From positions 62,001-126,000 of the forward strand of contig VDMD01000040.1 of assembly GCA_007026445.1 (NCBI GenBank): a DNA stretch of 64,000 bases, in the 5' to 3' direction. The notes below the pieces were generated by a model. It saw only the letters and a list, made by a program, of their open reading frames with translations. It had not been told where the DNA came from and did no database searches. This document shows, piece by piece, positions 22,456 through 57,520 of the stretch. Each line of letters opens with the position of its first letter. The first letter of the stretch is position 1. This DNA comes from Schizophyllum amplum. Its lineage: Eukaryota; Basidiomycota; Agaricomycetes; Agaricales; Schizophyllaceae. The position numbers and the translations under genes were made by a program.

Positions 22456-22456
22456 T

Positions 22457-22637
22457 AGACCGTCTTAGTCTCGTGCCCATCCGTTCGCTCCGCCACTGCA
22501 CCCACAAGGACCCACCGCGCAACGTGGGCGCACGTTTTTCGGTATTCGGGCGGTATTGAAAAGTGGAGAGCAGTGAGCGGAGCGAACGTCTGGCGCATTC
22601 GGCGCGGGTTAGCTAGGATAACGTCATAGGTGAAATT
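22457..22637. repeat. Left terminal inverted repeat of element B
   Basis: It matches 57520-57341 in reverse complement. It contains an internal 11-bp inverted pair, CGTTCGCTCCG (22482-22492) and CGGAGCGAACG (22578-22588). This pair is conserved in the right copy and could be a transposase-binding palindrome. Confidence 0.8.
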
Positions 22638-24593
22638 TCAGCTGCTTTGCGGCGCTCTGGACCACGTCCTTTGCCTTTTGCGTCTGTACGCGTGGCCTTC
22701 GATCTCGCGTGTGATCGTGCGCGCCTATCAGTATCTGTCCTCTGCATCACTTCGTCCTCGGCGTCAATGTCGTCGTGCCGCGTCGTCCCCATGGCCGACC
22801 ATGAACGGGACTATGCTAGCTCTACAGACTCTGAAATGCCATATCACTTGTCTTCACCCCCGGAATCCTCTGGCTCCGACACAGAACTCAATGCAGCAGC
22901 CGCGGAGGCGGCACGCCGCCCATCGCTGTCAAACAAGAATGATGCTGAGGGCAACGAGGACACGCTGCCGTCTCCGTTCGATACCCTGTTGGTTGGCCGC
23001 GTGAAGCGTGCTCTCATGGCCATTGAGAACGAAGGATTCAGCCTAGCGGAGCTCGTTGATTTCGTCACCTGGGGCAATCGAGCGTGCACGAGTGACCCTC
23101 GCATCCGAGGCGTTCGCCGCGCGTTCATGCACAGTGACCTGCTGCCAACGATGCTATAGAGATGGGCCGATCCGCCACGCGTCAGGAAGGGCACTCAGCC
23201 GGAGGGAGGCGCCACGTCTGTCAAAGAGGCTGCGTTTGTCATTGTGCTGGAGCAACTGACTCAAGAATTGGCGAACATCTCGTCCAAAGTGCTCCGGTCT
23301 CCTGCGAATCGTGAACTGTCTGCTGAGGAGCTCACGTCTATGCGCTTTTCGGAGCTCATCCCACGAGTGCAAGATATAGCTCCGCAGACATGGAGTCTGC
23401 TGCGGCAATTGGGATACAGTGCGCGACAGGAAGTGCATAATACGAGAAAAAATCCTGACAAGGTACGTCACTATACAGCTACCACATATGAGCGCGATTG
23501 CTCACAGAACCGGACGCGCGCAGATTGTATTCACGGTCATCAGTATGCTCTGTTACACTCGGAACAAAAATTGTGGCCGATATCAGAAGGCACTCAGCAT
23601 ATACGTCAAGTTCAAGGGCTTATCCGCGAAAGCCTTCGATACTCTGCATGCGTCGGGCCTCGTTATGAGTCATAAATGGACGGGGAACGCAGTAGACAAG
23701 ATTTCGAAGCGCGCGATGGACGAAGTCGCCACGATGATGGAGCAAAATCACGCCTGGCTCATCTCTCACGACAACATACAACTCCCGTTTCGCGTCTACT
23801 CGCAGCGCAGCGATCACAACACCATGTTCGGAAACGGCACTGCAGCCACCGTTTACTTCAAACGCAGTGCAGTACCTCCGGGCCCTGAGATGAACGCTGC
23901 GCTCAAGAGCGGTCGTGCAAAGGGTTTGAAGGATACCCTCACCGCAGCAGACATTGGCGACTTGGAGAACGCAGCGGCTCCACGCATCCGTACCCACGCC
24001 ATCTGGGAAATTCTCCGCTTCCTCCTCGAGTCCCCCGAGTTCGACTTTGCCACATATTCCGACAAATCTAGTGCTGCTGTGCAGCGCCCCGCGCACAGTA
24101 AAGCGCTACCGCACGGCAAGGAGCATGCCACGCTACAGCGCATGCTCGGGAGTGTTGACATTGCGGAAGCAAGTTACGAGGATAACGAGCGTCTCATCAC
24201 GGAATGGCTTCGCCAGCTGGGTCTTTCGGGGACAGAGAAGGAGAAGGAGATTGGCCTGAAGCAGGTGATCTTCTGGGTTGGCGACCAGCTGACGGTCGAC
24301 CGCCTGCGCGGCCTCTACAAATTCCACGCCGAGGAGTTCAACGCGTTCGACCGCCTTGACTGGCTCATTCCCATCTTCGGCTGGCTACATCTCATGATGG
24401 CATACGCGAACTCTCTCCACAAGCAGTATCTTGGCACTGGAAGGGGCTATGGTCTCTCGCGCGTCTTCGACGTGCTTGCACGCAAAGGCCTTCACCGAGT
24501 ACAAACCAAAGGCATCTTCTATCATGATCTCAACGAGGCTATCTACCATGTCACGGAAGCACATCTACGCGTTGACTGGAAGCTTGTCACTGG

Positions 24594-24598
24594 TGTAA
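24594..24598. repeat. Gypsy target site duplication, left copy (TGTAA)
   Basis: TGTAA lies immediately outside the left LTR and is repeated at 35475-35479 outside the right LTR. Five bp is the usual duplication length for Ty3/gypsy integrases. Confidence 0.9.
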
Positions 24599-24896
24599 TG
24601 TGATGGTCAAGTTCGAAGAGCGAGAGCGAGCGAGGATTTCGGGGGCGAGTCACTGGCGTTGATTCAACAAGGTACGTAGTCCAAACCCGTCCGTTATGTA
24701 GGTACCGGGTGCAGTTACAGGAATATGGTAAACAAGGCCATACAAGCACAATGCGTGACGAGGGCAGCGAGTCGCGCGTGCGCGCTGCGCCCTCGATACA
24801 ACACGAGAATGTAAATACGAGTGTCCATGAGATATAAGTAAAGTGTCCGTGGAATATAAGTAAAAGGCCGTAGGTCCGAGGACCCTGACCCTCACA
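24599..24896 (-). repeat. 3' LTR of the gypsy element
   Basis: 298 bp, TG...CA. Compared with 35177-35474 I see two substitutions: A instead of G in GTTGATTC(A/G)AC, and G instead of A in CCTC(G/A)ATAC. Confidence 0.95.
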
Positions 24897-24914
24897 TCAT
24901 CCCCCCTTTTAGGG
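24897..24914 (-). promoter_or_regulatory. Polypurine tract of the gypsy element
   Basis: On the minus strand the sequence CCCTAAAAGGGGGGATGA abuts the 3' LTR. A purine run here primes plus-strand DNA synthesis in LTR elements. Confidence 0.85.
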
Positions 24915-24935
24915 CCAAGATGTGCCGTCGCAAGA

Positions 24936-26274
24936 CTAGGAAGTCTCGGGGTCGCGAAGACGCGCCGGCGGTCGAGACACACGCCCGGAACGAAGCGTGG
25001 TCTGAGCCGGGAAGGTGTACTCAGATCTCAACCTCTGACGTACAACCGGAGGCGAGGCAGGGCGCGGAGCGGCGGCGGGAACAGCGGGAGCGGCGGCGGG
25101 ACGCGGGGCAGGAGCGGACGGCGGCGGACCTGTGGGAGCAGAAGAGGAAGCATTAATAGGCGGTGGCTCGGTGTGAGCGTCAGGGGACGAGGGTGGTTCG
25201 TTGGTAGGAGGTGGATAAGTATGATGAAGGACAATAGAATGAGGGCGAGGAGCACGAGGGTGACGACGGTGGAAGCGGTCGAGTAATTCGTTCTGGGAGG
25301 TGGGAATGTCGGATAACGGCACCCAGGAGTCCTCGGACTCGGGCTTGTCGACCCACCGCACGAAGTACTCGTAGCGGTGTCCGACCTTGCGGCAGTCGAG
25401 GATACTCTTGACGGTGAGTGCTGGATCGTCGGCATTATCGAGAGCGAATGGGCGAGGTGAGGAGTGCGGGTGGAACTCGGAAGGATCGTGGTACGGTTCT
25501 AGAAGTTCGACGTTGAAGACGGGATAGAGTCGGGATAGGTAGGAAGGGAGGTCGAGTAGGTACGCACGCGTGCCGACCTTGCGGACGACGCGGTACGGAC
25601 CGAGGCGGCGATGGTCGAGCTTGCCGGAAGGCCGAGTCGTCTTGATATTGCGTCGGAGGAGCCAAACGAGTTGGTCTGGCTGGAACTCGGGCGCATCTTG
25701 ACGATGTTGGTCGAAGTACTTGGCTTGAGCGCGCTGCGCGAACTCCAGTTCTGCGCGAAGCTCGGCGTGGATCTGTTCTAGACGACGCGCGAGATCTTCG
25801 GCAGCTGGTACAGTCGAGCGCTCGGTGATCCTAGGTTCAAATGTGGGGTGAAAAGCGAGGTTAGCATAGAAAGGGGTTTGGTGCGTCGAGGAGTTCTCGA
25901 GGTTGTTGAACGAGAACTCGGCGAGAGGGAGATAGTCGACCCAATCGTCCTGCTGGTACGAGCAGTACGCGCGCACGTAGGTCTCGAGCGTTTGGTTGGT
26001 GCGCTCGGTGAGACCGTCAGTGCGGGGGTGGTATGCAGTCGACGTCTTCATCTCGACGCCGAGATGCGAAGTCAAGGCTTTCCAGAAGTGAGAAACGAAG
26101 TGCGTACCGCGATCCGACACGATAGAGTCGGGGAGACCATGAAGCCGGAAGATACGGTCGAGGAATAACCAAGCCAATTCTTCTGCCGTCATGGATTCGC
26201 GGCACGGGATGAAGTGAGCAGCGCGCGTTAAGCGATCGCACACCACCCAGATCGAGTCGAAGCCGTGCGAGAGC
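24936..26274 (-). CDS. pol: Gypsy pol, 3' part: integrase core and chromodomain
   Basis: This is the continuation of the pol frame after the nested insertion. The reading starts in KLPLSHGFDSIWVVCDRLTR. The second catalytic Asp is in VSDRGTHFVSHFWKAL and the Glu in HPRTDGLTERTNQTLE; the first Asp (SMDFIVKLP) lies on the other side of the insertion. After the integrase C-terminal GPYR/LLEPYHDP region comes a chromodomain: ILDCRKVGHRYEYFVRWV, then DSWVPLSDI. Chromodomains target chromovirus integration to marked chromatin. The tail is Pro/Ala-rich. This part has no start codon of its own and is not expressed as a separate protein; the ATG-like start near 26246 is an artefact of the interruption. 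Confidence 0.9.
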
Positions 26275-26281
26275 GGCAGCT
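26275..26281. repeat. 7-bp target duplication of the nested TIR element (GGCAGCT), left
   Basis: It is repeated at 30839-30845. The next base outward differs (C versus G), so an 8-bp duplication with one later change, as made by hAT elements, is also possible. Confidence 0.8.
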
Positions 26282-26339
26282 CTACTTAGGCACCTATGAA
26301 ACTTGAGGTAGGCCCTATCTTTCACAGGATTATATACCC

Positions 26340-26715
26340 CCTATAGGCCATGTTTTCTAGACACTATAAATCTCTAATGCCTAGAGAATTCTAGTGCCTA
26401 GAGAAGTCTATATACCAGAACATTCTACAACTTAGACATCTCTGATATCCACATCTAGCTAGAAATCTCTAAACATATACCCTCTAGACTAGACATTTCT
26501 ATTGTTATGAATGAAGTAGAGATCTCTACTGACTAGAGAACTCTAAGGGCTAGAGTCCATTAGAAAACTCTATTGACTAGAGAACTCTAATAGCTACAAC
26601 AAAGTAGAGAAGTCTACTAACTAGAGAACTCTAACAGCTAGAAAACTCTACTAGCTAGAGAACTCTAAGTCCTACAGCACAGTAGAAATCTCTACTGGTT
26701 AGAGAACTCTAAGCC
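26340..26715. repeat. Left subterminal array of TAGAGA(N)NTCTA motifs
   Basis: At least a dozen near-palindromes occur, such as TAGAGAACTCTA, TAGAGATCTCTA, TAGAAATCTCTA and TAGAGAAGTCTA, typically 20-35 bp apart. Arrays like this next to transposon ends are commonly transposase-binding sites. Confidence 0.8.
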
Positions 26716-28657
26716 AGCGAAAACCAACACCACCGACATGGCCTGTGTGGTGCTACGTGTGCTGCGCGGGATGCAGGGCGAAGTGATGGTGGTGGGTGGG
26801 CAGCACGGAAGGCGTGAGAGGCAGGGCGTGGACAGGGAGGAGGCCGGGCCCGAGGCACGGGAAGTGCGATAGGAGAGGCCTATGCCTCTCGTGTTTCCCG
26901 CGCTCGCACGAGAGGACCCCGGGAGGCACGATGCAGAGAGCGGGGTGCGGGAGGCGCGTAAGGTGGGGCCCAGGAGCCACAAGAGGCGCAGCCCGGGGCA
27001 TAGGAGAGTGCTCGAGGCCAAGCACGGGGTGGGAGAGGCGATGTCCGGGGGTGGCGGGAGGTGGCGCCTAGGAGTTCGCAGGGCGCGTGAGGGCACCAGT
27101 GCGGCCGAGGCCGGGTTGCGCTGTCGGGCGGGCAGCAAAAGTGGGCGGTGAGGCGAGCACGCGCAAAGAACGGGCGAGCCGCAGGCGCAGGCACGCGGCA
27201 GTGGGGGCAGGGGGGAATAAGTGTGGACGACAGGAACCCGCGCGTTCCGTCGCCCGCACAATGCGCGCTCGACAGCGCGACCCTGCACCCGGACGCGCCC
27301 ACCATGGCGCCTAAGCGTCTTCCAGCGCGCATGGCTGATCTCCTGATAGAGGTGTTAGCTAGTTCGCCGCATACGTAGCATAGTACAGAACATACCTGAG
27401 CGGGGGCAGACCATGCGCACTGTGCCTTACAACGCGGCGTGCGCATTGCGGCTGTGCAGATGGTCGGGCTGGCGTGGAGGGTGCGGGAGGGGATGGTCAG
27501 GGAGCCGTGGGCGCTCTTGACGAGGTCGAGGGCGGAGGCAAGGTCAGGGGCGAGGTCAGGGGCGCGGGCGAGGGCGGGGCGAGGGCGGGGAGTGAAGCCC
27601 GCTGACATCGCCTGTTGCGCGCACGAGAGAAGGCGCGGGCAGCGCGTTAGCGCTGTCCGTTGTGCTACCCCTCGCACCATTCCTCAGCACCTGTCCCTCC
27701 GCCCGTTATGGGCCGCGCGGACGACGAGCGAGGCGCACTTGTTGCGTTCCCGCAATCCCACGCGCGCTGGCGCCGACGGTGTCCCGACGCGCACGCCCTG
27801 GCCCCACCAGTAGCGTACCAACGTCTGTGAATGATATTTTGTCAATTGAAGGTACAGGAGGGCGCGTAGGGGACACACCTAAGGCGGGCAGCGCCTTACG
27901 CGCCTCGCCCGCCATATCCACCGCAGCGCGCTGTTGAGCGCGCTGATTCGCGCGAGAGCCGGGGATGGGGGAGGGAGAGGGCTTCCGGAGGTGCCAATGA
28001 GCGAAGGGGATGGCGAGGAGCAACCACAACCGCGACGCGGTCGTGGTCGCTGGTCAAGAGGCGTTGATCAGCGACGGTCGGCGCCTCGGACCGATCTCCG
28101 AAGTTCGCCGTCGTCGCGCTCAACGGCCTCGGAAACTGATTATAGGGCATTTGAGCACAAAAGCTCCTGGACGTTCGTATCGTAATAGTGTAATGAGCTG
28201 ATTCTGAAAATTTAATAAGCAGGCGATGATGGGAAGGTATGGAACTGAAGCTCACATGTTTCACGCTCGAGTTCGAACGAAATGTCGTAGTACAGGCCGT
28301 TGCATTCGCGTCGTCTGGACGTTTCTCGGGCACACCTGTATGGAATCGTTTCAGTCAAAGTTGAGGCATGTAAATCAACGTCCCCCTACATATGTATGTA
28401 TTTTATCTTCCCTGTAACTGCCTAGATTGTATAAGAATGGGCAACAAGTGCTCAAAGAGCACTCTACTGATCACTATGGTTAGTTTTGATATATTCCGCG
28501 CCTCTCAGACCCATCGCAACACCCGATCGTTCAATGCCTATACTAACACATCATAATGTAAGTTGTTGGGCGCTGCAGTGCGCCACCGATGTTCTGATAT
28601 CGTGCCCGCGTCCCGTCTTGATGTACGCGATCGTGACCTGACGGTCACGTCGCCGCC

Positions 28658-29271
28658 TTGCCTCCTTCCACCACCCCGACCATTACACAATCTCTCAAGA
28701 CGCTGAACATCGCGGAGGATAGTAAGCCCGGGCGTGGAGGCCCCGCCGGTACGTGTATGATGCCCTGCGCTAAGTACCTGAACTTACTAACGAAGATACA
28801 GTTTCTGTTTCTCGCAATCGGCGTGCGCGAGGACGCGCGTCGTCCGAGGCAACATGGGGGGTCTCGCCACTGCCACCTTCGCAGAGCGAGACTTGGAGAG
28901 ACCTCCCAAAGTCGCCGCGGACGACGCGCACCCTTGCGCTCGGCTACACACGATCGAACCCAAACAAATTACGCCGGGCTCTTGCTTGTCCAGAGCATGT
29001 GTCCGGTCGGCTCCACCGCCCCTCCCCGCCTCCCATGTCGTCTGTGCACGCCGTTCACGGCGTCTACGCGTATCAACACGCGCCAAACACGTCCAGCGTG
29101 CCCAACACGTCCAATCCGTATCGTTCGCCGATCGCCGACAACGCCCCCTCCCCCATCCCCATTGCCGCGAGTCGCCGCCTCTGCGCACTCACCAGCATCA
29201 CGCCTATGGCGTCTGATGTGGCGAGCGCTGCATGCGTACTCTGCGCGACCCGCAGGCGGCGTGTAGGTTGA
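28658..29271 (+). pseudogene. Possible captured host gene fragment with an intron
   Basis: An exon-like frame (about 28658-28749) contains TITQSLKTLNIAEDSKPGRG. It ends at a gtacgt donor. The intron carries ACTAAC and ends in gatacag at 28801. The phase is preserved (1+2), and the frame then stays open to 29271 with SPLPPSQSETWRDLPKS, TLALGYTRSNPNKLRRAL and VHGVYAYQHAPNTSS. There is no start codon context or conserved domain I recognise. I read it as a fragment carried inside the TIR element (Pack-type capture); it could also be chance in GC-rich DNA. Confidence 0.35.
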
Positions 29272-30449
29272 GCGTCGCTCTCTCGCGCGCGCGTTCGATC
29301 TGTGATCACCCGCCGCCTAGCGACCGCCTGCGTTCGCACACCCGTTTCGCCTGGAGCGTGCACGGGGGGCTTGTCGACGCACCGCGGGCAGCATGAACGT
29401 AGTAGTAATATCTCAGACGCCCCTCCCCAGTTCCCTCTCCCATCGCTCACGCGCCCGCCGCTGTCCGCGCGCATGATTTCTCGCTCTCATTGATGTACGC
29501 ATATAGATCACTATATTCACATACAATATATACATATTACTTTGCCTTTAGCCGTTCATAGATCGACGCCAACGATAGAGCGACGCCGACGATAGAGCGA
29601 CGCCGACGCCGCGTGCGGCGGCGAGCGCAACGACCCCAGCAACGGGGCGCAGCAGCGGGCGGTACGTGCCGGAGTCCGGGCCGTGGACACGCGGCCCGGT
29701 ATTTCGGTCCGAGTCGCCGACCGTCCGCGAAAAATGCCTCTCAGCTCTCAACCACGACGACGCCGACCGCCCGGCTGCCCGCTTCATCCCCCTACCGCAG
29801 TATTCGACTCCGCGCGCCTCAAAAAGAAGGTTTTGAGAGATACGCCGCGGCTAGGTTTCCCACGTCGCGCGCCCAACGGCGCGGATGACGCAGGAGGCGG
29901 GTGCGCGAGACGGCGCTGCAGGTGCGTCGCTACGCCCTGTATACAATGTTTTTACTGATAACTGTGTTTTATATAAACAAAGCAGACGTCGCAGTCAACG
30001 GGACGGCAAGCAGCGCGACCGCCGCGTCAAGCGGCGGCCCATGCGCCTTGCCCACGCACACTGGCGAGTGGCTCGCCTGACGCGCGAGACGCGCGTCAGG
30101 CTCCGTTCGTCGCGCCCTTGATATTATCCACCATACCCCCGTCCCGAGCCCATCACACACCTCTCCCTACAAGAGCAGAGCCCGTCGAGGACTCATCGCA
30201 CCGGGACTTCCGGTGCTCTGCTCTTGGCCGGGGGAGCGTCAACGGGCTCCCCGACACCCCTCGCACCACCATGATTGACATGGGTATTCCCTTGCTGTGC
30301 GCGCCCCCACGCGGTACGCCACGCCTCGCGTCCCGCGCTAGTGCAGCCAACGGCGCGTGCATGTCACCTCCCGCTCCCCGCTCCGGTACATGCACCGGTG
30401 TCACCTTGCATTAGCGGCTTACTGACAAATATCACAGATACAGCTAGTA

Positions 30450-30760
30450 TAACCACCTAGATGGACATCTCTAGTGAGTCTCTAGAGATCTCTAGTCAGT
30501 TCATCCATCTAGAGATCTCTAGACACTTAATATATTAGAGATCTCTAAACAGCATATACCATTAGAGTAGTCTAGCCAGGGCAGCCTAATAGAGATGTCT
30601 AACCTTTAGAACATTCTAGTGCAGCTGCCATATAGAGATGTCTAGTCAGTAGAAATACTTTTCTAGTAGAGATGTCTAGTCAGTAGAAATATCCAAGCAT
30701 GCAATTGTGGTATAGTACTCCAGCATTAGAATTATCTAGGAATTAGACATTTATAGTTTC
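30450..30760. repeat. Right subterminal array of TAGAGATCTCTA motifs
   Basis: About ten copies occur of TAGAGATCTCTA, TAGAGATGTCTA and TAGAGTAGTCTA type, several extended to CTAGAGATCTCTAG. This mirrors the left array although the intervening sequence differs, so the motif rather than the whole region is conserved. Confidence 0.8.
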
Positions 30761-30845
30761 CAGAAAACTTGGCTTATACAGGTATATTATCCTGCGAAAG
30801 ATAGGGCCTACCTCAAGTTTTCTAGGTAGCCGAGGCTGGGCAGCT

Positions 30846-33828
30846 TGACTATGAAGTCCATCGAAATGGACTGCCACGGTCGCGCGGGTATGTCGAGCGG
30901 CTGGAGAAGGCCGTAGGGTTTGTGCCGAGGGTTCTTGATGCGCGGGCACGTGTCGCACGCTTCGACGTAGCGCCGGACATACGTGTTCATGCCGGGCCAG
31001 GAGTAGTCGCGTGAGACGAACCCGAGGGTGCGCGTTCGGCCGGGGTGACCTCCGATGACGTGGTCGTGTCGAGCGCGAAGGATATCCGCACGAAGCGGCG
31101 CTGGTACGAACAGTCGTCCTTTGTGGAAGACGAGGTCGTGTTCGGCGCGGAAGTCCTGGTCGCCGTTGATGAGCGCTTGCCGCCATTCCGTGTCGGCCTG
31201 GAAAGCGGTCTTGAAACGCTCGAGGAGGTCCGAGTTGTCGAGGGTGAGTGTCGTCATGGCGGAGGCGAAGTCGATGTCGGTGTTGGTGTAGGTTGGCACA
31301 GAAGTCGGCTCGTCGGGAAAGAGTCGCTCCGTATGCTTCGACGTTAAGAGCACCTTTTGCTGGACTTCAAGGTGCTCATCCCCCCTTTTAGGGACGAAGT
31401 CGGGACGGCGGGAGGGTGCGTCTGCAACGTTAGCATGGCCAGGGCCCCAATCAAGACGGAAATCGAAATCGGAAAGGAACATCGCCCAACGCGCCTGTCG
31501 GCGGTTGAGGACGCGAGAAGACATAAAGTATTCGAGGTTTTTATGGTCGGAAATGACAGAAATGGGGAAGGGCGAGCCCTGTAGCCAATGGCGCATGTCG
31601 CGGAAACATTCCACCACTGCGAGAAGTTCCTTGTCATGAACCTCGTAGTTGATCTCGGCAGGCGTAAGCTTGCGCGAGTGGAAAGCGACGGGATGAAGGG
31701 CGCCTTGAGCGTCCAGCTGATAGAGAACACCAGAGATGGCGAAGTCGGATGCATCGGTATGGACATGGCAGGGTAGATGAGGATCGAAATGGTGAAGGAC
31801 AGGATAAGAGAGAAAGGCAGATTTGAGAGCGAGAAAGGAAGAACGAGCCGCGTCCGAGAAGACGAAGGGAACGTCCTTGCGGACTAACGCGGTGAGAGGA
31901 AGGGTAATACGGGAATATCCGTCAATGAAACGACGGTAGAAATTAGAAAAGCCGAGGAAGGATTGAACGTCTTTGACGTTCCGAGGCTCGGGCCACTGCG
32001 AGATGGTGTCGAGCTTCTTGGGGTTCATCTTTACGCCGTCAGCGCTGATGATATAACCCAAGTATTCGACTTCGGACTTGTCGAACTCGCATTTGGCCGG
32101 GTTGGCGCAAAGCGAGGCATCACGAAGCCGATCGAGTACCATCTGAACATGACGGTCATGCTCCTCCTGCGTACGCGAGAAGACGAGAATGTCGTCGAGA
32201 TAGACGACACAGCAGACGTCGAGGACATCGCGGAGAACGTCCTGGATGAACGCCTGCCACGCGGCGGGAGCGTTGGTGAGACCGTAGGGGACGACGAGGT
32301 GTTCGAAGAGGCCGAGGTGAGTTCGAAATGCCGTTTTCCACTCGTCACCTTCGCGGATGCGAAGATGGCTGTATGCGCTCTTGAGGTCGAGGACCGAGAA
32401 GACTTTGCAGCCTTGGACACGGTCGATGAGGTCGCTGACGAGTGGTAGCGGGAACCGGTTCTTGCGCGTGATGGAGTTGAGACTGCGGAAGTCGACACAG
32501 AGTCGAATTTCGCCAGTCTTCTTGCGGATGAAGAGGACCGGAGCGCCGGCAGACGAGGTCGAGCGTCGGATGTGGCCACGCGCCAAGTTGGTGTTGACGT
32601 ACTCGGCGACTGCGTCACGTTCCTGGGGTGTTAGCCGATAAATGGGACCAAAGGGCGGGGATTTCCCGTCCTCGAGTTCGATATCCACATCAAAGGGACG
32701 GTGTTCGGGAAGTTTATCGAACTCGGTGGGGTTGAAAACAGAGTCTGCCCATGGCTGGTACTTGGAAGGAATGAAGTGACGAGGGCCATCATCATCTGGT
32801 GGACGAAGAGGAGGATCCATGGGAGGATCAGATGGAGGAGGAGGTGAAGTAGAGAATGAGTTAATGAATGTGGGGGTGGACGAGTCATAGAAGCGAAGGA
32901 GAGTGGATTCTGAGTCCGTATTCCTTGACAGTTTGGCGAATTTCTTCGCACTGACCAAGCGAACATTGGGAGAAGAAGAAGACGAGGAAGATGAAGACGA
33001 GGAGGAAGGAGACGAGGGGCGAAGTAAACCAGGGTTGGGACGACCGTAGCCGTTGGACTGGACGAGGAAACGAAGGAACGAGATACGAGTGGGAGGTTGT
33101 TCATGAACGTTAGAGGTGGATGAGCCCGCAGGCGGAGGCGCGGTGTAGCGCGGATGAGACAAAGCCAAAGTCGAAGGAGAGCCTTGTAGACCGAAGCCTA
33201 GGCCCACATGGGTCACAGAACGAAACGAAGAGAGAGATTCAACCGAAGGACCGAAGCCCTTGGCCGGGATAGTGAGAGGATGGGTACGAGTCAGGCCACA
33301 GCAATCGAGACGCAGGTTCGCATCCCGCCAGTTGATACTGGGGTTATGCTGCTGAAGCCAGTCGAGACCGAGGATAACTGGGTATCCAACGGCCACGACA
33401 GCGAGAGCTCGGTGCTCATCATGCGAGCCGACCGAGAGTTTGGCCACAACGTCATGTGTGATCAATCCAGACGCTATGGGACGGTCATCGACCGCCATGA
33501 TGGGTACAGGTACGTCCTTAAGACATCGAGGGAGGCCATGCCTAGTGGCAAAGCGCTCGCCTATGCACGACGACGTTGCACCGCAATCGACGAGGGCATA
33601 GGTATTAATGGGTTTGCGATGAGGAAAAGAGAGACGAATCGAAATGAAGAAATGGTTCGGAGAGTGAAGAAAAGAATGAGAAGCGAAGACGTAAGACGGA
33701 ACATGGCGCATAAGGGAAAGGGTATAGGTACCGTTCGCGTTACGAACGAACGGGGACTCCGGAACGCGTGGTGTCCCTGCGCGAACCGGAGACCGAGGGA
33801 CGGTGTGGTCACCGGTTACGCTTTTCCC
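30846..33828 (-). CDS. pol: Gypsy pol, 5' part: protease, RT, RNase H, integrase N-terminus
   Basis: The frame opens inside the 3' end of gag and is probably entered by -1 frameshifting; the first internal ATG is at 33711. Domains in order: protease ALVDCGATSSCIG (Asp-Cys-Gly in place of Asp-Ser-Gly), reverse transcriptase with LCVDFRSLNSITRKNRFPLP, VPYGLTNAPAAWQ and the YLDD box in VVYLDDILVFS, RNase H with TDASDFAISGVL, then the integrase HHCC finger (HDHVIGGHPG ... CDTCPRIK) and the first catalytic Asp in SISMDFIVKLP. There the nested TIR element interrupts it. A short chimeric tail SLGYLENLR and a stop at 30808 come from the insertion. RT-RNase H copies the genomic RNA and integrase inserts the cDNA. 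Confidence 0.93.
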
Positions 33829-35027: not shown

Positions 35028-35164
35028 GAGGGGTAAGTACGAAAGTGCCCGAAGGCGGCGAGAGAAATTTTCAAAGGGGTTTCGAGGTCGCGAGCGATGA
35101 CGAGAACAAGACGTTACCGGATGCGGCTAGTCAACACGTTGAGCTCGGTGTGTTGATGTTGGTG

Positions 35165-35176
35165 GTCGAATCAAAC
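35165..35176 (-). promoter_or_regulatory. Candidate self-priming primer-binding site of gypsy
   Basis: Two bases inside the 5' LTR the minus strand reads TTGATTCGAC (35174-35165). This is the reverse complement of GTCGAATCAA inside the same LTR (35246-35237). It does not begin TGG as a tRNA-primed site would. The arrangement is the one used by Tf1/sushi-type chromoviruses that prime with the 5' end of their own RNA. Confidence 0.6.
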
Positions 35177-35474
35177 TGTGATGGTCAAGTTCGAAGAGCG
35201 AGAGCGAGCGAGGATTTCGGGGGCGAGTCACTGGCGTTGATTCGACAAGGTACGTAGTCCAAACCCGTCCGTTATGTAGGTACCGGGTGCAGTTACAGGA
35301 ATATGGTAAACAAGGCCATACAAGCACAATGCGTGACGAGGGCAGCGAGTCGCGCGTGCGCGCTGCGCCCTCAATACAACACGAGAATGTAAATACGAGT
35401 GTCCATGAGATATAAGTAAAGTGTCCGTGGAATATAAGTAAAAGGCCGTAGGTCCGAGGACCCTGACCCTCACA
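35177..35474 (-). repeat. 5' LTR of the gypsy element
   Basis: 298 bp, TG...CA, nearly identical to 24599-24896. It should carry the promoter. If self-priming applies, the transcript begins close to 35246. Confidence 0.95.
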
Positions 35475-45188: not shown

Positions 45189-45709
45189 CGCGTTGTGGTT
45201 GTTCGGAACAGAGGGCAGCGTGCGTCATTCCGCCGAGGCGTGAAGCTGGACTGTATCGGCTGCTGTTGATAGGCGTCGTGATTGCGTAGAAGATAGGCGC
45301 AATCTGCGTCGATTCTGCGATAGGTAAATAAGTTGCCGATGCAGGGCGTCGTATTGTATTTCCAGATGGAGTTGCCATATGGGTGGCATGCGTTAGACTT
45401 TCGCACGCCGTCCTTACGTTGACCATCTGCAAGGCGCAGGTCTTGTCGGTGTATATTCTCTTATATTCACGTCTTGTTCGAGGTCATGCACTCTACAGTC
45501 ATGGTGAGGCTACAATCCAGACGTCGAAGATCGGCATCTTCGTGAGGGGTGCAAACAAAAAGCCCGTTAATGCGCGATGATGAGTATCGCACGTTCTGAG
45601 TGGCTCCCAGAGGTCTGTCTGCGACGTGTATTTCCAACGGTGCGTCCCTTGATGCTCTCCATCTTCATTCTCCTCCATCCTCTCATTCCGAACCGCCATC
45701 TTCCACCTC

Positions 45710-48371: not shown

Positions 48372-48842
48372 TACGAGTTGTAGGATACTTCAAGAATGCA
48401 TGGGGTGCAGGAGTTGAATGATGAAGACACGGACTCAATAGCAGACTGCGGCAGTACTACTTGTGGGCATTCATGGGTTCCTCGCTAAGACATGTGTGAC
48501 GACTGGTAGTTGCCCAATGGCAAGAAGACATACGGCAGGGCCGTCTACCGAGTGCGTCACGCTACGCCACCCACTGGACGGCAAGTTCTGTTTGGGCTTC
48601 TTGCCGTCGAGTTGTTGCAACGAGACGTGGGGAATGGAAGAGGGTAAGCAGATAGATTGCACGTGTCAGTTCCGACTACATGTACGAAGCATGATACGTG
48701 ACGAGTCCGCGTGTAGTGCGAGCGCAAGAGGAGCGCGTCTACGGCGTAGCATAGAGTGGATACAGGTAGTAAAAATGAGAAAAAAAGAATAGCCACACCC
48801 CTCGCGAGTCCGTGAAGACAACGAGATTCTATGTTGTCCACG
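48372..48842. other. Gap between dioxygenase gene and Helitron-linked gene
   Basis: The gap separates two convergent genes and presumably includes the Helitron 3' end. I could not identify a CTRR terminus or hairpin with confidence, and no gene is supported. Confidence 0.4.
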
Positions 48843-50422
48843 CTACTTCTTCGGTGGGTGCTCATCCTCCTCATCTCCGTCAATGTCAAAGACGGGAGCC
48901 TTGCGTTTCTTGATGGACTTCGACGGGCTTGTTAGGACTGCAGGGGGCCGCTGTATTGTGGAGTCAAAATAGAGGGAGGAGGGGGTTAGGAGTGCACTAC
49001 GTACCTTGGCGATCACACGGACACTAATCAGTCGGAAATCCCAGACGATTGTTTTCTCGCGCGTTACAAACGCCTGGCAACACATCAGATTATCAGGACA
49101 TGACCAAAGTATGAACAGATCGCACCCTGGGTGTGACGACGAGCTGCATAGCACAGCCCTTGTCAATGTCGTGAATATCGTGGAAGGACACTCGCGCCCA
49201 TCCATCGTCCACGCCGTCAACGCGCCTGACGAGGACTTCAGGAACTCGGTTATACTTGACGTCAACCTCGGGGCCTAGCGAGCGCCAGGTGTGGAAGACA
49301 TCAACATATTCGCTGGCGTATCCCTCCTAGTGGCGGTGAGCAGATTCAGAGGGTGGATTAGGCACGGGACGCACATCCTGGGTGACATTGTTTGGAACAA
49401 AGACGGGCCGTTTGGCGATAAACCACATGGAGCTAGCGGGGCCGTTCGAGGGTTTGTCATGGAGACGTACCCCCTTCATTGTGTCCTTCTGTTTCTTTGG
49501 AAGGCGTAAGACAGCGGCGCGCAATACATTAACGGTGAATAGCACATACAAGGAAGAGTTCGTTGAACTCATGGAAGGCGCTCCTTGCGATGTTGTCAGC
49601 GGGGCCGAAGGGGCTCCCGGAGATCGCCCATTCTCCTCCACGAGGGGACCAGTGTTTGAAGGCGGACTCGAAGCTGGGCCGCAGGTTAGCAAGAAGTGAA
49701 GTGAAGCAATGGCTGGCAGACATACACCTGTGTGGTCCAAATCTTGTCGGCGTAAACGGATGTCTTCTTGTAGGACGCATAACCCGGAATTGGCTCAAGA
49801 GTAACTCCTTCAGGCAGGCCATCGTACTTCCTGTAGTCCTGAAGAACGACACTGCCGTCGGGGGAGTTGTTGAAAGCCCACGTTGAGCGTCCGGTAATCA
49901 CAACCGCGAACAGAACACGTTGCTTACTGGTAATATGCTGTGAGTAAAATGTTCGCAGAAGAAACAGGCAACGCACTTTTTCGTAATGTAGTATCCGCCA
50001 TCATCCCCCATCGAGACGGAGCAGGTAGCAATGTCCTTCAGGCTCATACGCCGACCCCCATCTTCGGTGTCAAGCTCCAGCCCCGTAAGCCTCTCAGCGA
50101 TCTTCGTCAGGGTAGCTTCGCCAATGGTCGGGAGGAGGTGGCAGGCACGGTCGGGGGAAACGAGCTCGGGCCCGCCAGCGTCGTCGTCGGAAATGGCGCC
50201 GTCACCACGGTCAGTGGGGGTTCCAGCACCTGCGCGGTCGTCGGGATTGGCGCTGTCTCCACGCTCAGTGGGGGCTCCAGCACCTGCGCGGTCGTCGGGA
50301 GTGGCGCTGTCACCACGCTCGGTGGGGGTGCCAGCACCTGCGCGGTCGTCGACGTTGATGAGTTCGAAGCCGTCAGAGGACATGAAGGATTGAGAGGACA
50401 GAATCTGTGAGCGAAGATGCAT
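48843..50422 (-). CDS. Helitron-linked hypothetical protein
   Basis: Multi-exon. The first exon (from ATG 50422) carries three 18-residue repeats of the DDRAGAGTPTERGDSA type, then LPTIGEATLTKIAERLTGLE and a YYITK end near 49982. After a ~57-bp intron (gtgcgt...ccag) it reads KQRVLFAVVITGRSTWAF, GLPEGVTLEPIPGYASYKK and WTTQV. Later exons include WSPRGGEWAISG, LRLPKKQKDTMKGVRLHD and, from about 49265, TSSITEFLKSSSGALTAW, CQAFVTREKTIVWDFRL and a C-terminal SIKKRKAP basic patch. I recognise no domain. It follows the Rep/helicase gene on the same strand and is probably the second gene of the Helitron. Exon limits are approximate. Confidence 0.5.
50210..50352. repeat. 54-bp coding minisatellite, about three copies
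   Basis: The unit contains CCAGCACCTGCGCGGTCGTC and recurs at 54-bp intervals (50221, 50275, 50329). The period is a multiple of three, so the Helitron-linked protein gains 18 residues per copy. Confidence 0.9.
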
Positions 50423-50553
50423 GAGTCCCCACTTATGTATTCCGTATCAAGATTGGGGTGTGTAAACAGCTCAAAACAGGGGAGTATGAAATGGTAGAGG
50501 GAGTATGGTTGACGCCTATCTTGCCAACAAATCAAACCAGTGCGTGCCCCAAA

Positions 50554-53500
50554 TCATGCGGTGAGAAGCGAGGGTTCCATGGGAAACCTTGAGTAGTACC
50601 AGTCCAAACGGGTATGTGCCTGCGCCGCAGTTGCTTTACCCAGCTCGTCGGTGCGTTTCAACTCGTGGCGTAGTTCCTGTGAGATGTGCGTCTTGATCTT
50701 TGATAGGTTGAAAGGTCGCAGGATGCATAGACCGTTCAGAGAACGAACACGGGAAAGCATGACATACGCGCTCTGAATGGAGCGACAGCTAGCTAGATCG
50801 ATGCATGCGGTGTGTAGGGAGCGGCCTTGAGAATTGTGAGATGTAAACGCGAAGGCCGGGATAAGCGGGAGCTGCATGCGTGTAGCGGAATAGACCTTCT
50901 CTGAATTCGGCAATCTAAACTTGATGGTCTTTGAGATAGGCTTTAGGATGACCAGTGGGGATGGGGGGAATGGTCATCACCTTGGAATGCCGGAAAGTTA
51001 ACCGTGGCAGAGACGGCAAATCGTCGCCCATCACGCTCGTCGTAGGTTACCGACACAAGCGTGCCAAGGCTGCCTTTTGAGAGACCAAGCTCAGTTGCGA
51101 TATTTTCAGTTCCAAAAACAGGCATACCAGGAATGTATGGAACCCTTCCACCCAGATCATCAGCTTGCTTCACGGGGATGCGCCAGGCCGCTTCGGCAGC
51201 CATACCTTGTAGGGTCTGACGATTGTTGCCTTTGCCCCGTGTATCGAGTGCGTGGTAGAGCGCAAAGGGTTGATTTGTAGCATCAGCAAAGGCTCGGGCG
51301 CAGTGCAAGTTGTGAGCGTCACGGGCGGCATTTGTGTAAGTAATGAGGGGGCAGGCGTGGGTGGGGTCGGTCGCCCATCGGGAAATGTCTATCAATGCCC
51401 TTGTTTCGCCGGAGCAGGCAGGATTAGAAAGCACGTACCTATCCAGTACAGCTTTATCAGCCTCATGGCAGGTACCGGTGCGAAGGCGGTGGAGAATGTC
51501 AATAAGCAGATCATCGCCCTTTTGGCGCATGATTTCAGTTAGGACGACAACATTGTTCACCTGATGCCACGCCTGTACTCCCTTTACCTTGAGTTGGGTG
51601 GTCTCATTGAGAGCGTTGAGATTCTGGGATTCGTAGCATCGTACAAGCTCACGGTCGAATACAGGGGATGATCCAGGTGGAGGAAGCTGGGCTGGATCGC
51701 CACAAAAGACCATGCTAAGCCCCCCAAATACGTGCTCAGCATTTCCTTTGGCAATGCTGCAGTTCTCGGAAAGAATACTGATATCCTTTGCGCTCATGAA
51801 GTATATTTCGTCAACAACGAGGGTCTTCAGCATCGCAAAACGCGCCTCAAGGGCCTCACGAATCTTGGAACCACCTGCAGTACGAGCAAGAAGGTTTTTG
51901 CGCGCAACGCATAGCGCTGCTTCTGAATGTATGGTGCATCCGCCAATATCACTGGCGACAACACCAGTGGGTGCTGTGAGGCGGAATTCTTCCGGTCGGT
52001 GAATCTCTTTGTGAAATTCAGTCCAAGCTTCAAAGATTCGGGACTTTCCGGTGCCGCCCGGCCCAGTGACTAGAAGTCGAAGCGGTTCGGAAGGCGGGCC
52101 GGATGCAGTCTGCCGTGCCACATTATCGGCCAAGAGCAGAAACGCAAGCGCTTGGCGGCTGTTAAGCTGATGTTTAGCAATGAGCGTAATCGCGAGCTGC
52201 TGCCAAGGGTGAAGATCCTGCCATGGCTTGTCAGTGGGATGATGTCGTACATAAAGCTCCTTACTTCTATCTATCTCGTTCTGTATGTTGGTGGTGAAAG
52301 GGAGGGGGACATTGTCGGAGCACTGGCGGTGACGGATGGAGTTTTCAGTAGTCTGTGCCGTTCTTTCATTACGGCCATCAAGAAGGGCTTGTTTACGACG
52401 CTGAATGTCAAGCGCAGCCTTTTCAGCATTGAAACGATCATCTGCAGATGCAGGTCTGGAAAGCATCTCACCTTGTACTGCGTGACATGAAGAGGATGAG
52501 AGAGGTATGCTCGGTGGCATGTAGAAGCCTTGAGCTTTTGCAGCTTCGATGATGTGGTGTACATCGGGGGACACTTCGTCGTCCAATTGTGCCTGCACAT
52601 CATCGTGATCGGTGGAAGCCTGCATGGCCTCGTCCCATTCTGGATCGTAGCCATCGTCATTAGCATCATCGGTGACGTGACCGATCCCTGCGCTGACATT
52701 CAATTCAGCAAGACGCCGGCGCCTGATTTCTGTATAGTCATGTTTGGCATCTTTTGACCGGTGAAGCAGCTGCATGTTGTCAATGACCTTTAAAGAGGCG
52801 ATGGGTGCATTCATGCGCCATGCCTCATACTCAGCCTCCCATGATGTTTGAGGATGTTTGAGTGGTGAATCGAGTCTGCGTGACCACGGCTTGAAGAGAG
52901 CAAGCATGGTCGCAGCGTGGCGCTCTTGGTCGGCAGAGGAATCGCTTCTTGGGACAGCATATCCAACAAGCACTGGGATGCGTGGTTTCTCATTGTTTGT
53001 GATTTGCTTGAGACAATGTGTGGCATGCTGAGGATGCTCAGGCTGGAATCGCAAGTATGTCTTTGTCTGCGTCTTTGATTTTGGCAGCTTTTCTTTTATA
53101 TACAGTCGCATGATATCCCATACACAAAGATCCTCAAGCTCAGATGGGCGATAAAGCATGTCGGCGAAAAGCCTGTTAAGAGGTGGAGAGGAATTGTCCT
53201 CTACAACATCGGCGTTGCAGCCACGCTGACCTAGATTATCCTGGGAGAGAATAATGTATGGCGAATTATCGTCATCTTCGTCATTCCCGTTAGGTAGAAT
53301 AGGTGGCACAATGTCGTCACCAGTAGAGGAGGCATCGGCCTCACGCGGATCTTCGTCAAGATGGGCAGCAGGTACTGGCATGCCAGGATGCTCGCCCGTG
53401 TCTTCCGTTGAAGAGGCTCTATACCTAAAAAGATCAGCCGATATTTGTCTTAGCATCCCCGACCAAAAAAACAAGGGGTAGGAGCGGTTTGTATAATACG

Positions 53501-56500
53501 ATGGCAGGTTTAAAAGACCGGCTGCCACTTGCTGTCCAGAAAGTTCACGTTTGCCGTGGAGCTTGTTTACCGTTTTGACAAGCAAAAGACGGCTGCGCTC
53601 TTCATGATCTATATTGCCATCAACATCCATAGGTGGTTTTGTAGCGAGGGCTTTCATTGACGCGCAGATAGCAGAGAAGACAAATGCAGTGTCCATCGAG
53701 AATTTAGTGGTGTATGAACCTACGTACTGAAACATGGCCATAGCCATTGTGCCAGAGCCAATAGGCTTGATATCTGTATTACAGCGCTGCGCAGCCGTGA
53801 TGTAAGGTGAATAGCCATTCACACGCCCGTCGTTGCATTGCAGAATTATCTCATCGTCCTCTGTTATACAACTCTTTTCAACAGTGGGACGTGGCAGCTG
53901 GAAGCGACAATCCTTGTCTTCATCGCGCAAAGACCGCAAGTTGGAGGGAAGGTGCTTATAGCATGTCGCGCTATGTGAATGGATCTGCGCACAGTTTTCA
54001 AGCACATCACGAAGATCCTGATTAAACATGGAATCGTAACTTGGAAGACGTGGGTTGAGGGGTCGAGACATAATGGGCTGGCGACGGTACTCCAAGTGAG
54101 ATGGGTCATAAGCAACTGTTTCGGGTGGAATGCTTCTGGAAATGATGTCGTCGTACCAGAACAGGAGCCTTGTTGCAAACTCAGGGTCATCAGCGAGTTG
54201 CTGCTTGATGTCAAGTGGTGAAGGCCCGTGCTTAAGCCACAAAAGCATGTGTATGTGCAACGTGCCACGTCCTTGTGCCTCCACAACGCCATAATATGCA
54301 CCAACTTTGCCAAAAAGACCGATGCCATTCTCGCGAGTTGTTCCCAAAAGTATTCCTAAAAGGTTCCTTACCGAGAAATGAAAAAATTGAGCAGCAGCTA
54401 CAGGGTTTTGTGAAAGCAACTGGGCACGCTGCATGTTCTCTGCATGGGGGCTAAGGCTGTCAAAAAATTTATCAAGATCAAGGTCACGGCCAGCCATTAC
54501 AGCGGCAAGAGGACTGTTAGTATCGCTGACGTTTAGGGTGCAAAAGAGGTGTGGAATTCCATCGGTGTTGACAGTTGAAAATAGCTCACGGCGCATGCCC
54601 TCGACATCTCCCATAGATCCAGGTATATGCTCAGCAACTATGTTTACATAGCGGATCAGCGACAGCGCAGCAAGCTCTCCCTCAGTCTCAGCCTTGGCAA
54701 ATGGATTCTTGCGTAGCTTCTCCTTGAACGTATCAATGGTGTTATCACCAACTTTAGAGTACAAAACGTCAACCTGTGGAAACCATTTTTTCTTGACAGC
54801 AAGATTCGTAGAATATGATGTTTTGGAGCGCATAAGGATGCTGTTCATGACGAAGATGAATGAAAGATGGGTTTGAAAGCGACGGTCTTGAAAACTCTGC
54901 AGAAGGTGGCTGACATGAGTCTTAGCATCAACCTGGCGAAAGCCGATTGAATTGTCGGAGCGAACAGAATCATTGCCTATCATTCCTGCGCCATAAGGGA
55001 ATAGGGTAGGCCAAAGGTGACCATACACTTTGGGATTGTGACGTGTAGGCAATGGTATGGAACCGGACGGGTATTTTAGAAAAGATTTCCCTTGCTTGAT
55101 TGCCAACAGAGCATCAAGCTTACGCATACGGTATGTAGACTCAGTACGATCAGAGTCAACAATGGTGGAGGAGGGCATGCCTTCTATAGCAATATTTGGT
55201 GCAAAAGCTTCTGCGTTGGCGTCCTGTGTATAGGAGGCACCCTCTGATTGAGTAGACGAAGTGCGTAAAACACATTCAAGAGGAATGGGAACGTCGCATT
55301 CAGGATATCCCTCAAGATTGTGCACGACATCGTCCATGCTGAGGTCACGGTACAGGGGGTTGTTGGCAATGAGCCAACGGAGAGCCTCAAGAATTCGCTG
55401 GCGTCTAACAAGTAAAGGGGTCTTACGCAACATCTCTAAAGTTACATCTGCATCGGGAGACCCAACGAAGATCACACAAATCTCGTCTGCAAGGGAAGAG
55501 ATTGGTGGAGGCAAGGATGTAAGCAGCGGGCTAGGATCCTGAGCAAATATACAGGCATTCCCGCGCGACGCGAATTGGCCGGTAGGACCGGACTCAAGCT
55601 TGAACATACACCGTGTAGCACGAGCACGCGCAATGCATTGCTCCTCCAAGAAAGTCAGACCCTTAAGTACGTCGGGTACAATACCACACCACAAACCATT
55701 GGCGTAGCTTCGAACAGGAATACGTTGGAAGGCGGAAGCACTGACATCGTGCTTGCAACCTTTACAGAGACAGAAGCATCCATCCCGTATAGTATGCGGC
55801 TCATAAGCTCGAATATTTGATTGATCACTGGCAACGCGCAGATGAGCAACAGCACGTTCGAGACAAGAGATATCCAGCTGGCCACAAGGAATGAGTGTGA
55901 TGTCCTTAAAAACCTCGAGAAAGCCACAAAAGGAACACTCCAGCGTCTTCACCGCAATGTTCCCTGTAGCATCATAGTATTCCGCCATGATCTGTTTTTT
56001 CTCAGCGGTAGGTAATACACGCAGCCAGTCATCCATGTCACTAAGTTGCGATGCACCATCTACGACGGACAACGCACGGGGTGGCTCAAGTTCGAGGGGG
56101 GTGTTAGCCACCCGACGACGTTTGTTGGGTGATCCAGAAAGATTAGCGTCGGGAGCGGAGCGTTTTGTTAGACGCTGACGTGGTTGTGAAAGGCGCAGCT
56201 TCAAAATCTTGGCAGAAACAAGGAAGTCGGTCTCCGACATTCGAGGGTGGTCGTCATGATAGATCAAGCAGGCGTCGTCTGCATGAGAAGGTTTGACGAG
56301 GCAAGCACATGTACACGTATGGTTGAAAAGTTCACTACGCATGGTTTGCACTAACTTCCTCTTGGTCTTGCCATCTCTTTGCTCATATGTCTGGACACCC
56401 TGATGAAAGACAGCCAGTTTATAGAGGTCGTTACGCTGTACAGACTTGTCCTGGCTTAGTGCACGAATGACGCGAGTCTTGTCAGCAGGGGAGAGGGACA

Positions 56501-56714
56501 AAAACTGAGACGCAGAGTATGAAGGCGGGGCGGCAGAAATGGAGGAGGGAGGATGCGGAGAGCCCGCCGATACGTTCCGACCGGAAGCGTTGTGCGGTGG
56601 AAGGTGAAGGTCGTCCTTGTTGACAGTTGTAGGAAGCATATTATCACGGGTATTGTCAAGGTCAAGGTCAAGGTCAGGGTCATGGTCAGAGTCAATGCCA
56701 AGCTGCACATCCAT
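50554..56714 (-). CDS. Helitron Rep/PIF1-like helicase (one frameshift)
   Basis: This is the rolling-circle transposition protein. The main frame is 1,923 codons from ATG 56714 to a stop at 50943. The N-terminal third has Cys pairs (LECSFCGF, CFCLCKGCKH) typical of the DUF6570 region. The Helitron-type Rep part carries the HUH motif in GRGTLHIHMLLWLKHG. The C-terminal PIF1-like helicase has TGPGGTGKSRI, VVDEIYFMS and FCGDPAQLPPPG. The last helicase motifs (FTSHNSQGRSL, SAYVMLSRVRSLNGL) lie in another frame at 50913-50554. The change falls in a G-run (50957-50968). Either it is a one-base indel that disables the gene, a sequencing error, or a very short intron. The N-terminus has an Asp-Leu repeat (HDPDLDLDLDN) encoded by GGTCAA repeats. 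Confidence 0.88.
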
Positions 56715-57340
56715 GGCGGTGTCGAAAGGTTGAGGTGCCTTCGGAAGCGCACGTCAGACGTTGTGCACGACGGCGAAACATGAGGACGCACCATGCCCTG
56801 CTGCATGGCAGTCTGGAGAGTGCCAGCGCTATGTTCGGAAGGCGCAGCGCCAGGACTGGCAGACACGCTGGATCCAAACGCGCCGGAAGAGCAGATCGTA
56901 CGCGGTGACCCGATGCCGGGGACGGACGACGCGGACGCAGTAAACGAGAATGATTCGGGGGTAAGGACGTTGAATTCCATGAGAGTAAGAGGCGAGGAGA
57001 ATGTTCCGATGAGGGACGACAATGCTGTAGCAGAAGAAGATAGGCGGCGGCACAAGAAAGAAGAAACACGTCAGACTGACGTGGCACCTCCGCCCAAAAA
57101 GGAAATGCACCAAGTTCACCTTCACTCCAGAGCTTTCCCTACTCTTGTGGCTGTGCAACACGTGAAGGCTCAAAAAGGAAATGCACCATGTCGCACATCT
57201 CAGTGAATAGCCAAACCAAAGGTTCGGCAATAAGGAAGGAATGGCAGAGGGACGGACGCCCACAACTGTATAGCAGACAGGGAGGAGACTGGAGAACAAT
57301 GGTCGCGTCGCGACCGGTGCGCGGGAGCGTTCCTGGGAAT

Positions 57341-57520
57341 TTAAATTTCACATATGACATTATCCTAGCTAACCCGCGCCGAATGCGCCAGACGTTCGCT
57401 CCGCTCACTGCTCTCTCTTTTCAATACCGCCCAAATACCGCAAAACGTGCTCCCACGTTGCTCCCTGATGTGGGTCCCGGTGGGCGGAGCGAACGGATGG
57501 GTTCGAGACTAAGACCGTCT
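57341..57520. repeat. Right terminal inverted repeat of element B
   Basis: It is the reverse complement of 22457-22637 at roughly 85-90% identity. Longest exact runs include CTGGCGCATTCGGCGCGGGT and the paired CGTTCGCTCCG / CGGAGCGAACG. Confidence 0.8.

Follow-up and report, generated by a model that had tools for sequence, protein, structure and literature searches.

Which mobile element carries the TET/JBP-like dioxygenase gene that lies between two inverted repeats in Schizophyllum amplum? The window analyzed here is 64,000 nucleotides of contig VDMD01000040.1 (C245:62001-126000) in a 49.65-Mb assembly, and all genome-wide counts below come from the S. amplum genome alone. An earlier note on this DNA had read the 35 kb between the repeats as one large transposon, with a DUF6589 gene, a RecQ helicase, an F-box-like gene, and the dioxygenase as a single set of core genes. 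The repeats, the DUF6589 gene, a RecQ-like helicase gene, and the dioxygenase gene are all present, but they do not form one set. The 35-kb stretch is an old helicase-carrying transposon, later entered by several other mobile elements; DUF6589 with RecQ is a mobile unit, yet one without the dioxygenase as its own cargo. The dioxygenase lies within the ends of a Helitron and thus arrived with that element, not with the outer transposon. The explanation we favor, and consider very probable, is a nest of transposons made up of AcademH-like elements, later insertions, and a Helitron carrying the dioxygenase, with a predicted mechanism and a predicted anti-silencing role.

The outer element and its copies

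Element 1, the AcademH-like transposon that forms the outer layer, spans 22466..57511 and is defined by its ends, its target-site duplication (TSD), and its genome copies. Its termini, TAGTCTCG...CGAGACTA, lie at 22466 and 57511, and a perfect 9-bp duplication, AGACCGTCT, stands outside both (left, 22457..22465; right, 57512..57520). The left terminal inverted repeat (TIR; 22466..22637, + strand) and the right one (57343..57511, - strand) were aligned as 22457-22638 versus 57343-57520, with 87% identity over 184 alignment columns. The ~180-bp inverted repeats 35 kb apart that the earlier note had described are therefore true ends. The TIR has 27 matches in the genome, and perfect 9-bp duplications of varying sequence were found in nine of the 10 TIR pairs checked, the window included. 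Seven of the nine pairs outside the window are short, with spans of 0.15-1.7 kb; the other two cover 2.5 kb and 6.2 kb. These seven have only TIRs in common with the window, which, within this genome, is an outcome that the earlier note had itself named as refuting its reading.

The original content of element 1 is DUF6589 plus the RecQ-like helicase, as in C273:44958-51122, a compact copy of 6165 bp carrying these two genes. This copy is collinear with window positions 22466-24597, 35475-36830, 40901-43156, 43942-44054, and 57229-57511 (83-92% identity); the window sequence between these pieces (~29 kb) is absent from it and thus represents later insertion. On C157, a 2.5-kb copy represents a deletion derivative of this element. 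The left and right ends of element 1 differ, and in the short copies L009, L011, L012, and L013 each end matches its own window kind at 96-99%, so the window repeats are one left and one right end. Another short copy, L010 (C13:75600-78600), has two left-type ends (98.8% each) and no left/right pair, and the C273 and C157 copies have identical TIRs; ends may therefore be exchanged or converted.

Neither gene of element 1 is expected to be whole in the window, because a gypsy insertion interrupts DUF6589 and both a MULE-like element and a short inverted-repeat element interrupt the helicase. The 5′ part of the DUF6589 gene (23338..24598, + strand) matches PF20231 at 23380-24600 (E = 3.5e-52) and shares 92% amino acid identity with the C273 copy; the 3′ part (35475..36443, + strand) lies beyond the gypsy insertion. 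The helicase, of the RecQ-like superfamily 2 kind, is a separate gene on the opposite strand (40901..43156, - strand), with DEAD and Helicase_C matches and frames at 41824-42792 and 42800-43171. By match to C273, its C-terminal piece is at ~36485-36836, past the MULE-like element, and its N-terminal piece is at 43938-44027, past the short element. It matches the TIGR00614 recQ_fam model at an E value of 1.2e-27, under that model's cut-off, and the best PDB match for the helicase of a related locus, C79, is BLM.

A RecQ-like match was present at 10/10 DUF6589 loci, one being weak and one being the source of the query. The earlier note's pairing of RecQ with DUF6589 is borne out, both genes being in the compact C273 copy, and DUF6589, the candidate put forward in that note, probably serves the outer element as its transposase. 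Structure modeling suggests that it may be a DDE transposase, with a helical insertion interrupting its RNase H fold.

At each of the eight DUF6589 loci outside the window, 7.5-16 kb of sequence was read and a dioxygenase profile had no match there. The sole one of these eight with a dioxygenase less than 10 kb away, outside the stretch read, is on C77, and a KDZ transposase lies 3.5 kb from that dioxygenase. At this locus (C77:24892-35207), the KDZ transposase and dioxygenase are ~5 kb from an AcademH-like DUF6589 gene, an adjacency from which a false linkage is easily drawn. We rejected the dioxygenase as AcademH cargo, given the C273 copy without it and the profile searches at the other DUF6589 loci. 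The proposal that the DUF6589 element is a different carrier of DNA-base-oxidizing enzymes is thus not sustained, since C273 has DUF6589 and RecQ without a dioxygenase. Among viral contigs, no relatives were confirmed for the dioxygenase (26 pattern matches) or for DUF6589 (21 pattern matches).

The Helitron and its cargo

The Helitron has Helitron2 features and occupies 44050..57230 on the - strand (13.2 kb; 5′ end at 57230, 3′ end at 44050). It is inserted between A and T, with ends uncertain by 1-2 bases, and the C273 copy has an unbroken empty site, AATAATAAGG, where the window has the Helitron. Twelve other places in the genome have a match to its low end (38 bp) paired with one to its high end (163 bp), 3.0-13.4 kb apart and oriented to each other as in the window. 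In the 11 of these whose ends were inspected, agreement with the window ends is close; the twelfth, C245:252945-259735, was counted from its end matches. Eight more places match the 3′ end alone and were excluded from the copy count. On the minus strand, the 5′ end reads TTGCCGAACCTTTGGTTTGGC, and the 3′ end carries AGGTTCGGC, a GCCGC/GCGGC hairpin, and a C-rich tail. As expected of Helitron2, 12 copies have 5′ and subterminal 3′ asymmetric terminal inverted repeats (ATIRs) and a hairpin at each end (hairpins by eye), and there is a Rep/helicase gene (50946..56753, - strand) of 1936 open codons with DUF6570, Helitron_like_N, and PIF1 matches.

Both the dioxygenase and the F-box-like gene are inside 44050-57230, together with the Helitron ends and the Rep/helicase frame, and are not core genes of the outer element as had been supposed. 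The gypsy and MULE-like elements are indeed later passengers; the Helitron is the carrier of the dioxygenase rather than a passenger beside it. The F-box-like gene (44149..45138, - strand) has one in-frame TGA in the window copy and 54-59% amino acid identity to the copy on C275. Its naming in the earlier note finds a counterpart on the C275 homologue only, in a match at E = 0.0024, below the cut-off; the window open reading frame (ORF) tried gave none. The DUF6589, RecQ-like, and weak Tet_JBP matches of that gene list were recovered in the window itself. The F-box-like family has at least 20 genomic loci, nine of which have a Helitron Rep gene no more than 15 kb away, against 0.2 expected at random. 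A third cargo gene, of several exons (48879..50050, - strand), is conserved in the C275 Helitron and had no Pfam match in the two ORFs tried.

The C275 Helitron carries, in the same order, the F-box-like gene, the dioxygenase (60% amino acid identity over the 120 core codons compared), the third gene, and the Rep/helicase. The last 52 residues read of that Rep/helicase are 90% identical to those of the window; Helitron_like_N matches at C275:11135-11803, and there is no DUF6589 in the 7.6 kb read. By coordinates, a dioxygenase match lies inside two of the 13 Helitron copies, the window included, and a 13-kb copy on C1 has none in its first 7.6 kb. The ratio of nonsynonymous to synonymous change (pN/pS) between the window and C275 comes to 0.32 in the dioxygenase core and 0.41 in the F-box-like gene, values that are rough because synonymous sites are near or at saturation. 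On these sequence comparisons, both cargo genes look to be under purifying selection.

After the dioxygenase, window positions 48461-48841 hold a repeat that is 78% identical to two places on C267. We considered the C267 match as a dioxygenase paralogue and rejected it; it spans several frames with stops, and the stretch is therefore a non-coding repeat.

The dioxygenase and its family

The dioxygenase gene (46772..48371, + strand) has exons, assigned by eye, ending at 47406 and at 47462-47657, 47707-47803, and 47845-48371, with GT-AG introns; a start codon was not found in the window copy. Its iron triad is intact: the HxD motif reads HRD, the distal His lies in LIRHSN, and all three are invariant in 40/40 homologues. 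A search that scored 7991 candidates gave 91 homologues, the named ones from mushrooms. Of the two protein alignments in the analysis, A1 comprised its query and 32/34 homologues (P0092 and P0094 excluded), and A2 comprised 40 of the 91 dioxygenase homologues. The structure modeled for one of the latter, P0020 (pLDDT 75), has a TET fold; CcTet of Coprinopsis cinerea is its nearest match, then NgTET1, with CMD1 and TET2 next. We use the label "TET-like", by fold, because the Pfam Tet_JBP score is below its cut-off.

At positions 3 and 9 after the Asp of HxD, where CcTet has Gly331 and Asp337, all 40/40 homologues and 23/23 of the S. amplum loci aligned have Asn and Cys. These residues were placed by ungapped count from HxD, backed by a Gly shared at +7 and, farther along, a stretch resembling GN[YF]. 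The family is thus distinct from the PE type, being HxD and not HxE in the window and 40/40 homologues, and from the AG type, which has Asp at the Asp337 position and Gly or Ser at the Gly331 position. The +3 residue of human TET2, Asn1387, holds N4 of 5-methylcytosine (5mC) and disfavors N6-methyladenine (6mA); CcTet uses Asp337 instead, according to the parts of PMC11040006 consulted. Because the +3 residue here is Asn as well, we would expect the substrate to be 5mC rather than 6mA.

Since the genome searches scored best candidates, the counts for dioxygenase, KDZ, Plavaka, F-box-like, DUF6589, and Helitron_like_N are all lower bounds. For the dioxygenase, 29/33 matches were counted, four with E >1e-4 being excluded; after extra pieces of one locus were merged, 50/77 KDZ, 18/34 Plavaka, 20/25 F-box-like, and 10/19 DUF6589 matches remained, and all 18/18 Helitron_like_N matches were kept. 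At least 29 dioxygenase loci result. Eighteen lie within 10 kb of a KDZ match, against 0.6 expected at random, and 14 of these are 3.2-4.8 kb away; the C77 locus near a DUF6589 gene is among the 18. Such random-placement expectations ignore that dioxygenase and transposon genes cluster in repeat-rich contigs. Two of the remaining loci are in Helitrons, one is near a Plavaka match, and eight have no KDZ, Helitron, or Plavaka match within 10 kb.

In an unrooted tree of 23/29 S. amplum loci and 8/91 homologues, the window gene, its C275 counterpart, C279:18311, and a Schizophyllum commune protein (P0001) split from all others with ultrafast-bootstrap support of 100. The Helitron gene hence forms a separate lineage and was not recently copied from any of the sampled KDZ-linked genes. 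For C279:18311, the nearest relative, the 3.2 kb read downstream did not match the Helitron insert. A separate Tet_JBP gene at L039:3325-3876 (C223:2239606) matches the CcTet sequence at E = 7e-7 and the expanded family weakly; it was the only match above the Pfam cut-off in the Tet_JBP search that found it.

Other insertions and the second element

The gypsy long terminal repeat (LTR) retrotransposon (24599..35474, - strand) has a chromodomain, a 5-bp TSD, TGTAA, and LTRs that differ at 2/299 bases. Within it, just past the integrase/chromodomain frame (24939-26285), short repeats of the TAGAGAACTCTAA kind occupy 26473-26712. The MULE-like element (36837..40900, - strand) has a 9-bp TSD, GCAGGACTT, and a weak MULE transposase match within 37829-40075 (25.8 bits versus a cut-off of 27.6). 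The short inverted-repeat element (43157..43941) has 88-bp arms and no TSD of 8-10 bp.

Element 2, a second AcademH-like transposon (3645..22457; ends TAGTCTCC / TAGTCTGC), directly adjoins the left TIR of element 1, and element 1 sits inside its TSD. That 10-bp duplication, GACCGTCTGG, lies at 3635-3644 on the left and, on the right, at 22458-22465 continued at 57521-57522. Element 2 encodes DUF6589 (6500-8946, - strand) and a RecQ-like helicase (4169-5944, + strand); the ~12 kb from the DUF6589 gene to the right end is beyond what this pair accounts for. Ends of this family have perfect 9-bp TSDs in 12/12 other copies checked. At L038 (C90:195500-204200), a short family-2 element occurs twice in opposite orientation, with TSDs GTTTGAAGT and ACTTCAAAC that are reverse-complementary, so an inverted duplication of a stretch including host flanks seems likely. 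Family-2 ends flanked by a perfect 9-bp TSD also bound 14.6 kb at L054 and L055 (C112:2971571-2986135). This element gave no match for DUF6589, RecQ, Helitron, or the dioxygenase, four of its ORFs had none in Pfam, and it is a large non-autonomous or nested copy.

Discussion

We reconstruct the following course of events. Judging from the TSDs, element 2 inserted first, at GACCGTCTGG. Element 1, with its TIRs, DUF6589, and RecQ-like helicase, then entered the margin of element 2 and duplicated AGACCGTCT. The gypsy, MULE-like, and short inverted-repeat elements and the 13.2-kb Helitron later entered element 1, in no implied order, as TSDs or the C273 comparison show. The DUF6589 transposase may cut at the TAGTCT ends and make 9-bp staggered joins, with the helicase as an accessory. 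The Helitron would move by Rep/helicase rolling circle, with the TET-like dioxygenase, the F-box-like gene, and the third gene as cargo, and the dioxygenase most likely oxidizes 5mC in the Helitron, which would relieve silencing; both substrate and role are predictions.

For the outer element, the best match among known systems is AcademH. As described in papers that cite Kojima 2020, AcademH elements have 9- to 10-bp TSDs, a helicase partner, and fungal hosts. The elements here share these traits, with 9-bp duplications in 9/10 and 12/12 copies and 10 bp, by reading, for element 2 in the window; the transposase here is DUF6589 (PF20231), and the likeness is one of description, not transposase sequence. 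For the inner element, asymmetric terminal repeats and two hairpins are Helitron2 features in the portion of PMC3627910 consulted. The 5′-ATIR GCCGAACCT, able to pair with GGTTTGGC, the 3′-ATIR AGGTTCGGC before the terminal hairpin, and a Rep/helicase with PIF1 agree with that account, whereas the F-box-like, TET-like, and third genes and the A-T site set the window Helitron apart. Kojima described fungal transposons with TET genes, Helitron2 and KDZ among them, in December 2025 (PMC12730594); in the sections consulted, TET-carrying Helitron2 occurs in Agaricus bisporus and TET-carrying Kyakuja (KDZ) in five Agaricomycotina orders, and no movement of AG-type TETs between transposon superfamilies is reported. 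A TET/JBP-like dioxygenase as cargo is common to those elements and ours, but the Agaricales Helitron TETs in those sections are apparently of the PE type (HxE), unlike the HxD, Asn at +3, and Cys at +9 of the window gene. The main text of PMC12730594 does not contain Academ, Schizophyllum, or F-box. CcTet, as covered by the excerpt of PMC11040006 consulted, shares the fold (of the homologue) and HxD/H with the window dioxygenase and differs in Gly331 and Asp337, the first corresponding to Asn1387 of TET2.

Could the whole stretch nevertheless be one large DUF6589 transposon, the dioxygenase and F-box-like genes its own, lost from the C273 copy by deletion? The genes do sit between true ends with a TSD, and internally deleted family copies exist (C157). 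However, the stretch missing from C273 coincides with Helitron ends that are paired in 12 other places, the C273 site is unbroken there, the stretches read at eight DUF6589 loci outside the window lack a dioxygenase, and the C275 Helitron has both cargo genes with no DUF6589 in what was read; we give this account almost no credence. It is also very unlikely that the outer element is KolobokH, a fungal Kolobok with a RecQ helicase, rather than AcademH. Kolobok duplications are TTAA; those here are 9-10 bp, of varied sequence. The consulted part of PMC9587614 does describe KolobokH as encoding a RecQ helicase and as found in fungi only, but it places the helicase downstream of the transposase domain, whereas the elements in this genome encode it in its own gene on the opposite strand. 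The DUF6589-RecQ elements might form a superfamily of their own, their AcademH-like TSDs arising by convergence; nothing here ties DUF6589 to Academ by sequence, and the open-license literature searched does not mention DUF6589. TSD length, helicase partner, and fungal hosts agree with the AcademH descriptions consulted, and we regard a separate superfamily as unlikely.

A different doubt concerns the dioxygenase, which could be a decaying captured gene without function. The missing start exon, the in-frame TGA of the adjacent F-box-like gene, and the 11/13 Helitron copies, window included, without a dioxygenase match by coordinates fit that idea; the intact triad, the GT-AG introns (by eye), the pN/pS of 0.32, and the S. 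commune protein in the same clade argue against it, and on balance we doubt it, while giving it some weight.

Several points weigh against the nest as we read it. The name AcademH rests on TSD length and helicase. One of the 10 TIR pairs checked, on C241 (L013), lacks a TSD, and the element 2 TSD was read by eye with element 1 removed, a scripted check of the right flank with element 1 in place having mismatched at 8/9 positions. The C79 DUF6589 model gave no Foldseek hit at E ≤ 0.001, the best being the P element at E = 0.021, and VIA re-aligns Foldseek candidates only. Both structure models are of relatives (C79 DUF6589; P0020 of Marasmius), not of window proteins. For the dioxygenase, the Tet_JBP match at 47841-48368 (E = 0.00076) scores 19.2 bits against a 34.9-bit cut-off, precomputed Tet_JBP annotation exists on 2/91 homologues, 9/40 match Tet_JBP at E ≤ 0.1, and no solved TET was recovered from the PDB by sequence, whether the dioxygenase alignment or any of three single members served as the query. 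The pN/pS values come from a single pair of copies whose synonymous sites are near or at saturation.

One can tentatively envision more: that a single undescribed TET type, marked by HxD, Asn at D+3, and Cys at D+9, is common to mushroom transposons of two unrelated mechanisms, KDZ cut-and-paste and Helitron2 rolling-circle, and that it has a 5mC-selective, TET2-like active site unlike the 5mC/6mA kind of CcTet, and that the Helitron keeps the TET, F-box-like, and third genes as a selected anti-silencing cassette. This is possible rather than probable.

Nesting can make an unrelated gene resemble transposon cargo, and the supposed link between DUF6589 and TET is here corrected. Our findings suggest a new tie of DUF6589 to AcademH-like elements, an earlier description beyond the open-license literature being possible, and a domain of unknown function thereby gains a model-based candidate role as their DDE transposase. 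They also add a Schizophyllum lineage of Helitron2 whose TET-like gene, of the HxD/Asn/Cys kind, is apparently under selection, extending the TET-carrying Helitron2 and KDZ elements in the consulted sections of Kojima 2025 (PMC12730594). In Schizophyllum, a genus already employed for laboratory work, it could now be asked whether transposon-borne TETs protect their own elements from silencing.

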